Positions 353 to 62,166 of a stretch of 64,000 nt of DNA are shown in pieces (positions within the stretch are counted from its first letter, which is position 1; every line of letters starts with the position of its first letter). The notes beneath the pieces are model-generated. The model was not told the origin of the DNA. It did no database searches and was given only the letters and a program-made list of their open reading frames with translations. The stretch comes from Pempheris klunzingeri. Its lineage: Eukaryota; Chordata; Actinopteri; Acropomatiformes; Pempheridae. The DNA lies in contig NC_092034.1 in assembly GCF_042242105.1 (NCBI RefSeq), positions 16,253,644 through 16,317,643 of the forward strand. Direction: 5' to 3'. Position numbers and translations under genes: made by a program.

Positions 353-2160
353 ATGGTCCGAGGAATCTGTTTGGGATTTTTTGACGTGATGCTGGTCTTC
401 CTCCTGCTGTGCTCCGTCACGGGCTTGCTGCTGATGGATCACCGCAAAGATGCAGAGGATGACCAAGAGCTCAACAAAGCCATTTTGGAAATGTTACATA
501 TCGATAAACTGTCTGCGAGCCATCAGTCTAAGCCACATCCCTACATGAGGAGGATCTATCACCGCTTGGACTCGCTGGAGGCTCCGGACTTTGGGGGTTC
601 AGATGGAACACTGGTGCAGAGTTTTCGGAGTGTTGTTGGTGAGGATTTGAAAGGAATGATCGTCTTGTTTTAAAGCAATGATTGTGTCAGTTATTCTGAT
701 CATGGGAAGTGATTTTTCACATTTCCAGTTTGATTGTGCAATAAATGACTCAAAAATGTGCATACATGAAATCCAGCTGTGAACACAACAGCACACAGTC
801 AGCTAATGTGGTAGCAAACAGTTGCATGTGTATACATTCATCCAACAACTGTAGAACTGATGGGGAGTTTTAGCTCTGCTTTGGTCTGCCCCAACCCCTG
901 AGAAACAAAAAGACAGCATCAAGGTTATTTCGTCAGACTTGATCGAGCTCCCTCAGAGTGACAGAAGACATTACACACCTGTTTTTACAAGCTGACAGAA
1001 TTCAGCAGGACGATTAAAGCTGAGCTTGATAAGTCCAACTTGTGGAGGGCTACTTTAACTTTGTAATCTTTTCCAGTGTGAAGATGTTGCTTCAGCAAAA
1101 TGCACAGCCTAAAACCAGAGCTAGTTCTGCCAACAGATGAATTTAGAATTCAACTTAATCGGCCATACTGGTGATCCGTTCAGCTTTTCTACGAGGACAC
1201 AGCAGGTGGAACCGAATCTTTCTAATTTGGACTCATCAGACCAAAGAACAAATTTCCACTGGTCAGACGTCCACTCTCTGCGTTTCTTGGCCCGATTCTC
1301 CTTTTCTTGTTCCTCCTCAGTAGTTTCTTCTTTGCAGAAATGTGACCATGAAGGCCTGTTTCACACACTCTCCTCTGAGCAGCTGATGCTGAGATGTGTC
1401 TGCTGCTTGAACTCTGCGATTTCTGAGGATTTTACTTCTAATGAACCCTGCACAGCACAGCTGATGGTCTTTTGTTTACCACATAGTTTTGATGTCTTCA
1501 ATATTAATCTACAATGTAGAAAATGATCAAAATCAAGAAAAGCCATCGATTGAGAAGGTGCGCATCTAAAAATCTAAATCTGTGTTGCATGTATGAAAAT
1601 GAGTCTTTCAACCATCCAGGTCCACATCGTGCTCCTCCAGGGTGGATCTGGTTCAATGTCAGCAGCCTGAACCCCTCCATGCTGGTTGCGGAGTTGGTTC
1701 TGTTCAGGAAAACCCTCCACCCCCGTCCCATCAGTGTGACCGTCACCCTGCACAGTGTAACAGGTTCACTGGGAGCTCAGACGGAGAGTCCTGCCCTCGA
1801 GGAGAGACTGCTGACCCTGGACCAGCGGCCCTCGTCTGGATATGACGTGTTTGATGTGTCAACTGTTCTGGCCGAGAAGCCTCTGGGGGTGGTGGGCTTT
1901 CAGCTCCGTTACACCGACGAGAGCGGGAGTCTGGTGCTGCATGAAGCCCTGACACAGAGTCTTTATTGTCTGAACAGAGGCGCTCTGAGTGAACCCTTAC
2001 TGGTGCTTTACCAAGCACCCCCCCCACGCGCCTAACACGCTGCACTGATGTTTTTTGTTCAAACGTGTCCAAGCAATGCAGCGAGGACGTGATGGTGAGA
2101 CTGAAGTGTTGCAACTTTGACACAGACAAACATTTTGCAAAACTGAATCCACAGAAATAA
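353..2160 (+). pseudogene. BMP/TGF-beta family ligand gene with the mature domain largely deleted
   Basis: Two exons join cleanly: 353-638 (donor GTGAGG) and 1620-2035 (acceptor CCATCCAG), giving 233 codons. The product has a hydrophobic signal segment (about residues 10-27), a BMP-type PHPYMRRIY motif (61-69), and a prodomain core beginning GWIWFNVSS (103-111, with an N-glycosylation site) and ending LLVLYQ. This pattern matches BMP-class propeptides. The frame then stops at 2033-2035, after a run of eight C. No furin site or cystine-knot domain follows in frame. In another frame, 2026-2160 stays open and reads PTRLT..., then SKQCSEDVMVRLKCC, which resembles the last ~30 residues of a mature BMP ligand. 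I infer an internal deletion that removed most of the mature domain plus a frame change. A poly(A) signal follows directly. An ADMP-like ligand is possible but unproven. An assembly error or a genuine prodomain-only gene are alternatives. Confidence 0.7.
1150..1575 (-). mobile_element. Decayed Tc1-like transposon fragment
   Basis: The plus strand carries the antisense of a Tc1-family transposase: a segment reading like 'ggactcatcagaccaaagaac' (near 1229) and the 'atgaaggcctgtttcacaca' region (near 1348). It ends in the characteristic Tc1 terminal stretch 'ctacaatgtagaaaatga' (1509-1526), followed by 'gattgagaaggtg'. Much of the transposase is missing and no continuous transposase frame survives. 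The relic occupies the 3' part of the single intron of the BMP-family gene, ending about 45 bp before its exon 2 acceptor. Confidence 0.7.
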
Positions 2161-2161
2161 A
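2156..2161 (+). terminator. Poly(A) signal of the BMP-family gene
   Basis: A canonical AATAAA lies about 120 bp after the in-frame stop and overlaps the stop of the shifted C-terminal frame (2158-2160). This placement, directly at the end of the ligand-like frame, supports a very short original 3' UTR. Confidence 0.55.
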
Positions 2162-4242: not shown

Positions 4243-5576
4243 ATGATGCTTAAACATGTCGGGGAATCATTTCAAAGGCCACGAAGTCAGCTGCTGCATC
4301 AAATACTTCATTTTCGGATTCAACATCATGTTTTGGGTATGTTGGTTTTTATTTTTTTTATTTTTATTATCATGAATCTGCGCATCTCCGCCTCCCCAGG
4401 TCGGTTATTATCACGGCCTGCAGGGAGGAAGGCCGCGATCACCGCCGCGTCTCTCCGCCTCTCCGTGCCACCGTTACCACCGGAGCTCCTGTCGGTCCAG
4501 TCGTGTCCGGATAAAAGCAGCAGACAACGAGGGGAGCTAATCGGCTTTTTTTTGTCCCAGAGCTTTGAGCTTCACTGTCGGCCTGCGGGCTTATCATCCA
4601 GGCTCGGCTTCATGTCGCCTCACTGGCACACAGTGCTCTGACAGCAGGACGCGGCCAAGACCCTCCAACTTCCACCTCTCAGTGCCTTCAGGCATGACGT
4701 AATATGTCTTTAAAAAAAAAAAAAGTGATGTCATTCATGTCAGGTTTGTAGAGGACAGAGCACGTGATCATAATATCAGAGCAGAGGGGGGGGGGATTAA
4801 GGCTCTGGTGTTGTGTGTGTTACTAATAATGCTGATTATGGTTGTTATTATTATTATAACAGTGGTGGATCAGTATACCTGAACATCAGCTGTACATCCA
4901 GCAGAAGCCACTTTAACATGATGTAAAACACAGAAAAGCAGTCAGTGTCCACATGTTGGGGAGATTAACTCGACTGATGAATCATCTGATGAATTCAACA
5001 CTGTTTCAGTCAAGGTTGTGCTGTAGTTCCCATGGATCACCTCATACACGCTAAATAATGCATTTCACTGAGAGAACATTACTTTTTGAAGTTGGAAAGG
5101 AGGCCGTGACACACAGGATCAATCTGATGTATGATACCAAGCTGTGACCTGGTCCGATGCCTGTCGTTATCCTGTAAATAGCCCGATGTCCCTCTGCATC
5201 ATGTGCAGCCCTCTGGTGCAGCACTTCTCCAGTCAGAGGCTGCAGAGCTCTCAGCACGTGTGTCCTGCCGCCTTCGGGTGGCTGCAGGGACCTACAAACT
5301 ACAAAAAGAAGTTTTTTGAATTGAAAAATTGCTCTAAATTTTCAGGTGTGACTTCATTTAAAGGGCGAACGTACAGTGAAAGATATCCAGGACTGGTGTT
5401 AGGTCACACTAAGATAGAGAGAGAAGACAAGATGGGATAAAGAAGGTGGTGAAAGCTTGGCTGACAGCCACCATGTCACCTTACATCAACACCTTTCCAG
5501 TTATTTGACGTGACTGTCATTTCTTTCAGCTTCTGGGCATGGCCTTAGTTGGAATCGGACTATGGGCATGGAGTGA
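4243..5576 (+). promoter_or_regulatory. Upstream ORF overlapping the tspan5 start
   Basis: A tandem ATGATG at 4243-4248 precedes the tspan5 ATG (4256) by 13 bases and is out of frame with it. In the spliced transcript the frame runs through exon 1 (to 4336) and stops at a TGA at 5574-5576 in exon 2, giving 46 codons. If the transcript begins upstream of 4243, this overlapping uORF should lower tspan5 translation. The first ATG has a weak context; the second has A at -3. The transcription start is not known from sequence. Confidence 0.4.
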
Positions 5577-8500
5577 GAAGGTAAGTTATTGTTCAGTCTC
5601 GACCAGTCAATCTATATTTCTACAGATTCATAACAGAAGTTAATAAGGACTTTTTTTTTTTATCAAAGGTCAACGTGATGGTAAAGTTTTTCTTCTGCAA
5701 TAATCAGTATTATTATGTCAGCAATGGATCCCATGACTTACATGTAAGGGTATCAAGGTGTCACTTCTAGAGGAAGCCCCCCCCCCCTCCAGCTTTAGTT
5801 TGTTGTTTTGGTGTCGTAACCTGCAAACTATGAAAAAAAAAACTCATTCATCTCATTTCCAGCAATAAAACAAAAGAATGTAGCTTCCAGCAGCTTCTCT
5901 CTCTCTGCCCCCTATGTTGGGCCAAAAAAACCACTAATGGCAGCTTTAAAGTCCTTAAAGTTCTTCAGTTTTTGCAGACGTAAATCCCAGTGGGTGTCAC
6001 TCGCCGTAGCATCCTGGCTCACGCTCAGCTTGTTGTCGTCGTTGTTCTCCGTCTCTCCCCCCCCATCCAGGGCGTTCTGTCCAACATCTCATCCATCACA
6101 GACCTGGGGGGTCTGGACCCAGTCTGGCTCTTCATGGTGGTCGGAGGGGTCATGTTCATCCTGGGCTTCGCAGGATGCATCGGAGCGCTCCGGGAAAACA
6201 CGTTTCTACTCAAGTTTGTAGGTTCCGTGATGCAGATGATGATGAATGATGGGGAAATGTACGGTTTCGCAAACGTCCTCAGTATCTGTCGTCTTCTGTT
6301 GTAGTTCTCCGTGTTTCTGGGCATCATCTTTTTCTTGGAGTTGACGACAGGAGTCCTGGCATTTGTCTTCAAGGATTGGATTAAAGACCAGCTCAACCTG
6401 TTCATCAACAACAACATCCGGGCGTACCGGGACGACATCGATCTACAGAACCTCATTGACTTCACTCAGGAATATGTAAGTTTAACAGAATAGCAGATAG
6501 TCGTTAAGAAATATATCGATTTACAGCTGCAGAGCTGAGAACTGATAGTTAAACAAAATGATATTCACACAGATTCTAGTTACTGGCAACTTCTGCTTCT
6601 TCTGCTCTGTTTGCTTCTGTGATCTTAAACAATGAATACGTCAGCTAGTTTTTCTCTCTTCTGCCTCCTCATCCTCATCTTTGCCTGTATTTGATCACAG
6701 CTTTGGTTGTCTGTCAATAGTGCTGGCAGTGTACTCACCAGAGTAATCATAGCAGGGAAAGGAGCAGTCAGACAATTACACATTCAGAGCCAGAACCGTT
6801 TTGTTAGGAAGTCAAAGTGAGTGTGAATGTCATACTGAGATTCCACTGAGTGGTGTCATTAATGATGTTAACATGTTCCCACGTCTCGGCATCTCCAGCA
6901 GTAAATTACCTACATCTCAGCAGTACTTACACGTGCAGCGGTGGTGGATGCAACTAAGTACATTTAGTCAAGCACTGAAGTACTGAGCTGAGGTACTAGA
7001 GTATTTCTGCTGATTAATCCTCCAGTACACTTTTTACTTGATCTAATCAACAAATACATCCTGAGGTATCGTTAAACACTCAGCTACGCAGCATATAGAG
7101 AAACAGAATTAGCATGACTTCTCAAACAAAGAAGGGAGGAGAGGAATCATTTATTAAAGGTAACGTAACATAAGTAAACATGTCAGTAATCAGTGGGCTG
7201 GTGTTCAGTGCTAACCTAAACCATCCATCCACTGTCTATAGCGCTTATTCTTAATCCCAGCTGACATTGGACTGATCACCAGTCAATAATCAATCAATCA
7301 ATCTTTATTTACACACAGAGACAGACAACCACTCACACCTACAGGCGATGTAGAGTCACCAGTTAAGCTGCATGTGTCTGTACTGTGGGAGGAAGCTGGA
7401 GAACCCAGAGGAAGCCCACAGTCATGGGGAGAACACACAGACTCCACACACCTACAGGCTCCAGGCTCAAAGAGCAAACTACATTTCTTAACCTAAACCT
7501 AGTCTAAACCAACCAAAACCAAGAAGACCCCAAGCTGGGGGCCTGTAGGGCTCATGGTGTTGTCCATCAGCACCATTAAAGCCATGCTCACACTGACTGT
7601 GTTCATAATTAAAATAGAATTATTGCAATAGATAATACTTCTAATAATACTTCTCATAATCTAATTGTATAATATATAAATCGTCTGACATGGCCTTTCT
7701 CTATAAAATACATGTAGCTTCTAATCCTTTTCTACTTCTACTGGTACCAGAGTATTTATCTCTTTAACACAGTGCCTGGCCAGCAGCCCTGTGAAGAAGG
7801 TTATGTAAGGTCATGCAAGATCTAGTCGTTTTCATCAAGTCCGCTTGTGGTGGTGCGTTTAATATTGTCCACAAATAGAGGAAATGTTGATGTAAAGGGC
7901 CCTTTGACGTGTTTTGTCCTCTCTGGCTGGCTGCAGTGGGAGTGCTGCGGGGCGTTTGGAGCGGATGACTGGAACCTGAACATCTACTTTAACTGCACTG
8001 ATGGGAACCCCAGTCGGGAAAAGTGTGGCGTTCCCTTCTCCTGCTGCACCAAGGACCCGGCGGTACGAGCCCCTCACTCTGCACGCACACACACACACGC
8101 TTTATGGAATGGCTTCATAAGGGGCCGTTCCAATGTCGCGTCTAAAGACACCTGGAAAACACCGTCCGAGGGGATCGTGCTGCTGTCACTGTCGCTGCTG
8201 CCGTTACTAAGCAACTAGAGAGTTACTCACACGCACAAATCACAAGTGGTGTGTGGCGATCTGTTAGTTTGGCGGCTTCACTGCTCAGTTTGTCTGTAGA
8301 AAAGAAAAAAAAAAGAATGATTTTGCAGCCAGATGTTGCAAAAAAACTAATGTGCGCTGTGGTTAAAGTTTCTTCCTTCTGATCGCAGGAGGACGTAATA
8401 AACACCCAGTGTGGATACGACGTTCGAGCTAAACCAGTAAGTAACGTGACTCACTCACTCTTTCACGTCTCCCACACCTGCCCCAGTAGTGTGTAAAGCT

Positions 8501-9008
8501 ACTGATAGCCGTAATTAAGTCTCCCAGAAAGAACAGCAATTCTTCAAGCTTTTCCAAAGTCAGATCAAAAGATGGAAATCAAAAAAAGTCACGTCACCCA
8601 TGTGTCCAGTGCAGTTTTTACCACTGTAACACACGACGACAGATGAGTGCAGTCAGAATGAGAATGTTAAGGTGACTCCTGGAGATGCTGTTCTCGCAGG
8701 ACTCCGAGCAGAAGGACTACATCAACGTGAAAGGCTGCGTGCCGCAGTTTGAGAAGTGGCTGCAGGACAACCTCACCTTGGTGGCCGGGATCTTTATAGG
8801 AGTTGCGCTACTGCAGGCCAGTCCCTTTCATGTGTTTAACCCTCACAGCGGCTGACAAAAGACAAAAGATTGGAAACCAAACTATCATTCCGTTTCTCGT
8901 TTTTTTTAAAACTGTCTAATGGTTTTTTTCCTTCGTCCACAGATTTTTGGGATCTGTTTGGCCCAGAACTTAGTGAGTGACATTGAAGCTGTGCAGGCAA
9001 GCTGGTGA
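4256..9008 (+). CDS. tspan5: Tetraspanin-5 (TspanC8 group)
   Basis: Eight coding exons: 4256-4336, 5530-5580, 6071-6217, 6305-6475, 7937-8062, 8389-8436, 8700-8816 and 8943-9008, totalling 268 codons plus stop, the usual TSPAN5 length. Tetraspanins are four-pass membrane proteins; TspanC8 members bind ADAM10 and direct its exit from the ER and its substrate choice (Notch and others). The product shows the juxtamembrane SCCIKY cysteines (12-17), [12 protein letters not shown] after TM2, and a large extracellular loop with CCG (153-155), FNCT, PFSCC, TQCGYD and KGC: eight loop cysteines, as in TspanC8. It ends in [32 protein letters not shown] and the neighbour rap1gds1 favour tspan5 over tspan17 or tspan14. 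All splice sites are GT-AG except the donor after 8816, which is GC. The start is fixed by MSG and the conserved N terminus. Confidence 0.96.
6500..7936. other. tspan5 intron 4
   Basis: Non-coding. It contains a relic of a teleost repeat with the motif 'agtacatttagtcaagcact' (near 6956) and a reverse-oriented SINE/LINE-tail copy at 7203-7470. No extra exon is supported. Confidence 0.6.
7203..7470 (-). repeat. tRNA-derived SINE-like teleost repeat (copy A)
   Basis: It reads 'ccatccatccactgtctata ... cagctgacattgg ... cagacaaccactcacacctacagg ... tgtactgtgggaggaagctgg'. The same order of blocks, in the same orientation, recurs at 25330-25560 and, in the opposite orientation, at 55655-55980. 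The ATCCATCC end is the 3' tail of the element. Confidence 0.65.
8817..8942 (+). other. tspan5: GC-AG intron of tspan5
   Basis: The protein alignment [11 protein letters not shown] requires exon 7 to end with CTGCAG at 8816. The intron then starts GCCAGT and ends TCCACAG. Using the nearby GT at 8821 would add bases that break the conserved LLQIFG sequence. This is therefore a GC-AG (U2-type variant) intron of 126 bp. Confidence 0.8.
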
Positions 9009-20900: not shown

Positions 20901-22627
20901 GATTATTTCCACTGGGGATGGTGAGGACATGTCCTGCTCACTTTTCAAAATCCTGTCTCTGTCCCCCACTTTTATAGTTTCATAGACACAAGTATGAAAC
21001 TATAAAGGTGGGGGCCAAATACAGGAGTTTGACTGTCTAGCTGTCACAATCCACATGAGAGAAAGGTGTAGATAAAAAGGCTGATTCACTCGTCTGAGTG
21101 ACTTCAATCATTACAGTGCGCTCACAGTTATCAGCTTACTGAGCAGCAGCGAATGTTACCCAGAGTGCTTTGTGGACATTCAGAGGGAAAACTGTACTCA
21201 GGGCTGAACTGAGCACTGGCACCATCTCTGCTTTACAGTATGTGTGTGTGTGTACTTCTACACATTTTTAATCTAGTGATATTTTTAAATATTTTTTAAT
21301 GAATCCAGTGAAGTGTTTGTCACATTAGTGATGACAGACTGTACACTACACACACACACACACAGTGACCTGATCTGGGCATTATGGGATGAGATTGTTT
21401 TGAATAGAAACGTTGTCGATCACCTTCCACTTGATTTATAAGGTGCTGGTGGTAAATATGCAAATCATTGCTTATAAGGAAAAATAAAATCTTTACATAA
21501 CGGTTGAATTATTAATCCTCTACAACAGTGCCGGACAGAAGACATTTATATTTTCTGGTCATATATGAAGTCAGTTGGGGGGGTAACCTTTCCCCCACTG
21601 GTATCCTTAGTACATCTAGCTTCACGATCTGTGCAGCAACAGTAGTCTGACAGCTTTAATTACTGTCAGCTTCATATATTCATACTCAGCTGAATATGGG
21701 TGCCTGTGCATATAGTGCGTCCTGGAACTGGATAAATATGTGTTTTTAAACCCTCATCCATCCTAACCCCATGTAGCTGAAAATACAGTTCACTGTTTCA
21801 ATATTACAGTGCTCAACAGTATTCACAATGTTACAGAACACATCAACTGCATTAAATTAGTGGTATAACTGGCGATACTAAAACCTGCCTATTACCAGTC
21901 AACATGGAGCCGTTTACCTCCCAACAGCAGAAGAACCATGAGGTCAGAGGCAGTCTTGAGCTGGGCGATGTCCTCCTCCCTCTCTCCATCTACAGTCTGC
22001 GCCACCACTTCCAGGAGACACTCCACCAAGCCTGCCTCCACCAGCTGCAGCTTTATCACATCTGGCAGGGGGAGGACGGTGAGACCACGGTAAGCAGTTC
22101 ATACTGGAACAAGCTGCTGCTGCAATACAGTGCATCATGATACCCGTTATATGATATGCATCATGTGACGCAGTGAGGGCCCAGCACACTAACCTGACTG
22201 TACAGCATATAATAACTGGTTTGTTAGGCTTTAGGTATTCAGCAAGTCTCATTAACCAGGATTCCACCCAAATGTAGCAAAGATTTTAGCCAAATTCATG
22301 CATGTATCCATCCTCCATGCTACTGTGTGGTGCACACAGGATAAACAGTTGGTGGCAGTAATTCCCAAGTCAGTTACCATTAAACTATTGCAGAGGAAAA
22401 AGAGACAATGAGATGACTTACTTAATGGCTCACATCAAACCTCAAACAGTGGAAAACAGGATGGATGTGGTGGAAATATGAAGCTACATGAGTATACAGA
22501 ATATCTCTACAACCCAGCAGTGGGGAAAAGTAACTACGTACTGTTAATCAAGTATTGTATTGTTCAGTTGTTGTCTCTCCAGAAAGCTAATGAACAACAT
22601 GCAGCATGCCAAATGAAAGGGATGGAG

Positions 22628-42808: not shown

Positions 42809-43764
<956 letters not shown>

Positions 43765-61644: not shown

Positions 61645-62166
61645 ATGTTATTATCTGGACTTTTTTTTACATTCTCTATCTTTGTAGTTGTTATACTGCA
61701 CATGTTGATATTCAAAAATAGTCTGAAAAAGGACCTGCTGTGCTGGCCTGCTCTGTATAAGACTGCCAGGGTCAGAACCTTGGAGGTGGTCAGCACCACC
61801 AAAGAAGAAACCTCAGCAGGCACTGCTACTACTGACAAAGATACCTCAGCAGGCACTGCTACTACTGACAAAGAAACCTCAGCAGGCACTGCTACTACTG
61901 ACAAAGATACCTCAGCAGGCACTGCTACTACTGACAAAGAAACCTCAGCAGGCACTGCTACTACTGACAAAGATACCTCAGCAGGCACTGCTACTACTGA
62001 CAAAGAAACCTCAGCAGGCACTGCTACTACTGACAAAGATACCTCAGCAGGCACTGCTACTACTGACAAAGATACCTCAGCAGGCACTGCTACTACTGAC
62101 AAAGATACCTCAGCAGGCAGACGTGCATCAGCTGTTAGCTACAAGTGTGTGAACCACACAACTTAA
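61645..62166 (+). CDS. Hypothetical 173-aa ORF: hydrophobic N terminus plus Thr-rich 11-residue repeats
   Basis: An uninterrupted single frame. Residues 1-24 (MLLSGLFFTFSIFVVVILHM...) look like a signal anchor or membrane segment, followed by a basic Lys/Arg stretch. From residue 55 come nine copies of an 11-residue unit (E/D-TSAGTATTDK) and a partial tenth, and the frame ends NHTT. Ser/Thr density in the repeats would suit O-glycosylation. I do not recognise it. The start context is weak, no splice partners or promoter were identified, and the opposite strand is also open through the repeat. It may therefore be only a minisatellite that happens to be open. Confidence 0.25.
   Translation: MLLSGLFFTFSIFVVVILHMLIFKNSLKKDLLCWPALYKTARVRTLEVVSTTKEETSAGTATTDKDTSAGTATTDKETSAGTATTDKDTSAGTATTDKETSAGTATTDKDTSAGTATTDKETSAGTATTDKDTSAGTATTDKDTSAGTATTDKDTSAGRRASAVSYKCVNHTT
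61807..62118 (+). repeat. 33-bp minisatellite, nine full units plus a partial
   Basis: Nine near-identical 33-bp units (61807-62103) and a 15-bp partial. The visible variation is at the third base: GAA in units 1, 3, 5, 7 and GAT in units 2, 4, 6, 8, 9. This shows a 66-bp higher-order dimer with local homogenisation at the 3' end. The unit length is a multiple of three, so both strands remain open. Confidence 0.95.

Follow-up and report, generated by a model that had tools for sequence, protein, structure and literature searches.

The window analysed here is a 64-kb stretch of contig C23 (16253644-16317643) in a Pempheris klunzingeri assembly of 646 Mb and 439 contigs. Near its left end lies a two-exon gene (353-638 and 1620-2035; Table 1) whose translation gives a product of 233 residues. 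As the preliminary description had stated, the start codon, the splice-site context, a hydrophobic leader and a stop following LLVLYQ and eight C are all present in the sequence. The ATG has an A at -3 and a G at +4, the donor GTGAGG lies directly past 638, and the acceptor CAG lies directly ahead of 1620. Exon 1 carries the motifs ILEMLHI, YMRRIYH and TLVQSF, as read in translation and aligned to paralogues from the same genome. The coding part of exon 2 runs from 1620 to 2032, with the stop codon at 2033-2035, and the product ends in LLVLYQAPPPRA. There is no internal stop or frameshift in the translated prodomain frame, the product has one N-glycosylation motif, and the order of motifs after the hydrophobic leader matches that expected for a BMP prodomain. 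G+C content is 0.57 in exon 2 versus 0.43 in 2036-2157, a fall expected of flanking or untranslated DNA, except in the core 2066-2112, where it is 0.53.

Table 1. Features at the left end of the window (positions are those of the window).
Feature	Position	Strand	Description	Basis
Coding exon 1	353..638	+	ATG, hydrophobic N-terminus, N-terminal part of prodomain	Translation, paralogue alignment, hydropathy, start context
Phase-1 intron	639..1619	+	GTGAGG...CAG	Splicing predicted from sequence
Dispersed repeat in intron	1174..1562	.	Resembles a remnant of a Tc1-type transposase in a minus-strand frame	By eye
Coding exon 2	1620..2035	+	Arm part of prodomain to LLVLYQ, then APPPRA, TAA stop	Translation, profile E 6e-9
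Run of eight C	2018..2025	+	Site where linker, furin site and mature domain are expected	
Shifted frame, claimed C-terminal relic	1993..2160	+	Likeness to ligand C-termini at or near chance level	
AATAAA hexamer, like a polyadenylation signal	2156..2161	+		Direct sequence reading
tspan5, coding exons	4256..9008	+		Name and end by eye

The downstream neighbour, tspan5, has a close second copy at C3:12084009-12091141 with 72-91% identity by exon, which perhaps derives from the fish genome duplication; no TGF_beta matches were found beside that copy. Part of the intron repeat (1174-1419) recurs at 75-83% identity in at least 39 other genomic places among 40 scored of 749 candidates, and a Pfam search with the repeat frame 1174-1562 returned no match. 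Two tandem arrays lie farther to the right. One, at 42900-43264, consists of 59 copies of the 6-base unit CAGGTA (86% matches) and sits about half a kilobase ahead of an slc1a1-like gene, counted to its first coding exon; gene name and exon were assigned by eye. The other, a minisatellite at 61805-62119, comprises 9.5 copies of a 33-base unit (97% matches), and its frames are open on both strands because the unit length is divisible by three. To the left of the window, a frame resembling the first exon of a FREM-type gene was recognised by eye (at about 8163 in the reverse complement of L064, on the minus strand); it provides a useful left synteny anchor for the locus.

The product was compared with known prodomains at several levels of sensitivity. 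No Pfam family, TGFb_propeptide (PF00688) included, matches the window protein at E<=10, whereas a control search with human BMP2 returned TGFb_propeptide at 9e-50. A PDB sequence search with the window protein likewise found no match. Despite the silence of Pfam, the BMP-like character that had been proposed for the prodomain holds up against a profile of nine prodomains from ligand genes of the same genome, with exon ends placed by eye: the window protein scores 21.8 bits (E 6e-9), the best shuffle reaches 7.4 bits, and none of 2000 shuffles equals it. A six-sequence profile built from family prodomains, in part taken from PDB, gives 9.4 bits (E 3.3e-5), again with none of 2000 shuffles equal to it, although the best of them reaches 7.8 bits. 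By comparison with its paralogues in the same genome, the window prodomain is of BMP type, with a homology that is remote at the sequence level. In keeping with such distance, a tblastn comparison of the prodomain with the ligand loci retrieved from this genome gave a best, non-significant E of 0.79, and a genome-wide prodomain search at E<=10 returned only the window gene itself.

Pairwise comparisons pick out particular relatives, whose names are our own assignments from C-termini and gene structure. The best is an ADMP-type prodomain on C15 (22443350; z 8.7), followed by a BMP16-type prodomain on C4 (from 12026808, L071; z 6.7) and a second ADMP-type prodomain on C20 (16156192; z 4.2), with 0 of 1000 shuffles matching in each case. 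The other six of the nine prodomains (BMP2, BMP4, GDF3 and three nodal-type) do not rise above shuffles (z <=1.5). An initial pass restricted to in-frame upstream stretches of 33 loci had also placed the BMP16-type locus at the top (z 6.6), with three others at z 3.7 to 4.2. The arm part of the BMP16-type protein aligns to window residues 105-226 with a score of 73, and this gene, like the window gene, has two coding exons and a phase-1 intron just past an SF motif. It differs in that a basic stretch leads into a complete mature domain, and its identity to the window protein is about 25%. The ADMP-type genes share the phase of the first intron and nearly its place; unlike the window gene, they spread the prodomain over more exons and possess a mature domain (exons by eye).

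Intron phase is identical, and intron position agrees within one codon, in all five paralogues examined (BMP2-, BMP4- and BMP16-type and both ADMP-type), with paralogue donors inferred from consensus. The window gene, with two coding exons and a phase-1 intron right after a [VI]RSF-like motif, has the BMP2/4/16 gene structure. The earlier suggestion of an ADMP affinity is borne out by the best pairwise prodomain score, but not by the exon layout, which is of BMP2/4/16 type and not the multi-exon ADMP type. A weak tree leaves the window gene unplaced, on its second longest branch (2.94). Exon 2 was also modelled as a single sequence, with low confidence (pLDDT 54.8). In a Foldseek search with this model the first three matches are pro-myostatin, at E 2.6e-3 to 6.4e-3, but they superpose poorly (TM 0.28-0.29, rmsd 14-16); the fourth is an unrelated fibronectin domain, and none of the 879 matches attains E 0.001.

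A furin site and a mature domain, which should follow this prodomain, were looked for and not found in the window. None of the 66 assembly-wide matches to Pfam TGF_beta (PF00019, E<=1e-3) falls within the 64 kb, and the sole match on C23 sits about 12.4 Mb away. When a mature-domain profile of 25 genes from the same genome was run against the window, the best frame, at 22362 and 20 kb away from the gene, had an E of 0.15; in the interval between the gene and tspan5 the best frame had an E of 6.1. No furin-type RXXR site occurs in the 233 residues. Searches of the 646-Mb assembly, using the DNA of exon 2 in one case and the entire prodomain in the other, found this locus only and no near copy, so that no second haplotype carrying the lost part has been assembled. 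Elsewhere, a mature-domain fragment on C13 (7170831-7171243, L028) is close in sequence to the tail of another locus of that chromosome, L049, a tail that we take to be of GDF5/6/7 type. The fragment has a shortened C-terminus that has lost its final cysteine, and looks like a decayed duplicate.

A shifted frame (SKQCSEDVMVRLKCC) exists at 1993-2160, and its translation agrees with the preliminary description, which had taken the portion from 2026 to 2160 to be the tip of the mature ligand, offset by one base from the prodomain frame. The best case for this reading is a colinear alignment with the human GDF5 tail (PTRL...CC). In the most favourable test, a pairwise comparison with six human tails, the frame ranks 26 of 2849, and among 659 length-matched frames 15, the frame itself being one of them, score as high or higher. 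Four other tests place it at or near chance, an outcome that the preliminary description had itself named as a refutation. When compared with 45 C-termini from the same genome, it is equalled or exceeded by 405 of 1500 random 143-base segments and by 224 of 800 GC-matched ones. It ranks 1784 of 2849 frames against a 12-sequence tail profile and 718 of 3390 against the mature-domain profile, and its DNA finds no match better than E 0.92 among 69 loci. Random segments thus resemble TGF-beta C-termini as well as this frame does, and we treat its likeness as chance, one weakly favourable pairwise test notwithstanding. With that likeness falls the argument built on a one-base offset of a relic.

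The locus is best explained as a growth-factor gene that broke recently; a gene for a stand-alone carrier protein is less likely. We infer a former mature domain, its deletion, the recency of that loss and the lack of function in the remaining product; taken together, these make up an account of a former BMP-family ligand gene about which our confidence is evenly poised. The ancestor would have been a BMP-family ligand gene, placed by prodomain similarity in the neighbourhood of BMP2/4/16 or ADMP. A deletion extending from at or near the C-run, which is likely its edge, would have taken the linker, the furin site and the whole mature cystine-knot domain. Any transcript would then encode only a signal peptide and prodomain, with no signalling part, and the locus would represent a loss-of-function allele or a unitary pseudogene. 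The prodomain frame would still be open because, at the pace of neutral decay, little time has passed since the loss.

Simulations of neutral decay bear on this last step (4000 draws each; indels, where included, assumed to be 0.12 of substitutions). With indels, the frame remains open in fractions of 0.34, 0.11, 0.04 and 0.005 of draws at 0.01, 0.02, 0.03 and 0.05 substitutions per site, respectively. When indels are left out, the frame lasts much longer, which speaks against the preferred reading: the corresponding fractions are 0.80, 0.63, 0.51 and 0.33, with 0.12 at 0.1 substitutions per site. The deletion is probably recent, because under the model used a neutral 233-codon frame would soon close. 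A recent deletion accommodates the open frame without extra assumptions; long retention under selection accommodates it too. An intact prodomain frame is equally expected of a prodomain-only gene under selection, and to that extent counts against the reading as a broken gene.

Such a gene would have lost its mature domain while selection maintained a secreted prodomain that acts on other BMP-family ligands, either holding them or competing for matrix sites such as fibrillin. We consider this rather unlikely, even though the start, the splice-site context, the hydrophobic leader, the N-glycosylation motif and the 233-codon frame are all intact, since a young broken gene covers the same facts without invoking a new function. 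The strong divergence of the window gene, as judged by its branch in the weak tree, suits relaxed constraint as well as it suits a new role. Xenopus nodal-related 3 retains its mature domain, whereas the searches of the window gene turned up no such domain. That protein nevertheless offers a precedent within the TGF-beta family, to judge from a title in the reference lists of PMC3348924 and PMC406387, which describes the nodal-related 3 pro-region of Xenopus tropicalis as essential in BMP regulation. In PMC4482570, BMP prodomains are described as forming complexes with mature growth factors and directing them to fibrillin; the same source contrasts them with the prodomains of TGF-beta, GDF8 and BMP-10, and suggests that they do not act as inhibitors in their own right. 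Published roles of this kind make selected retention possible but, because of that suggested lack of inhibition, do not favour it.

The remaining explanations question whether a mature domain has been lost at all, or lost entirely. It is improbable, though less so than the two possibilities that follow, that the assembly or its consensus is in error and that the true chromosome keeps a linker and mature domain dropped at a GC-rich stretch around the C-run. The break does coincide exactly with the eight C. However, a linker and mature domain amount to some 350 bases, and losing so much unique sequence is unlike the usual homopolymer error. The window contains 0 N and lies within a record of 18.65 Mb, exon 2 has no near copy elsewhere in the assembly, and the one evident mature-domain fragment among the 66 TGF_beta matches, that on C13, bears a GDF5/6/7-type tail. 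We regard it as very unlikely that a single deletion left a true mature tip out of frame at 2026-2160. The colinearity with the GDF5 tail and the coding-like G+C of the core at 2066-2112 speak for such a tip, but it does no better than chance in four of the five comparisons, and a tail far more diverged than the open prodomain is ill-suited to one event followed by neutral decay. Least credible of all, and close to negligible in our estimation, is that the gene is whole, with the mature domain encoded by an exon farther downstream. The ADMP-type genes of this genome do seem, by eye, to carry the mature domain on a separate exon; nonetheless, the window yields no match to TGF_beta or to the fish mature-domain profile, the 62 kb downstream of the gene included, and tspan5 begins as close as 4256.

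Among published work on ADMP, excerpts of PMC5979292 report that some 2R species have two copies of the gene and that admp2 of tilapia is enriched in the ovary, and those of PMC3711925 place ADMP together with CD320 in the chicken and the zebra finch; the present locus is not described in these excerpts of either paper. The two published copies fit the ADMP-type genes on C15 and C20, and this suggests that the window gene is a further, different gene. A literature search, beyond whose reach most subscription papers lay, found no pairing of tspan5 with ADMP or with bmp16. If the truncation is real, the locus documents the loss of a BMP-family signal beside tspan5 in a fish lineage. If selection maintains the open prodomain, the locus would offer a natural example of a prodomain of the TGF-beta family at work with no ligand, and would allow the action of a prodomain on its own to be tested directly.
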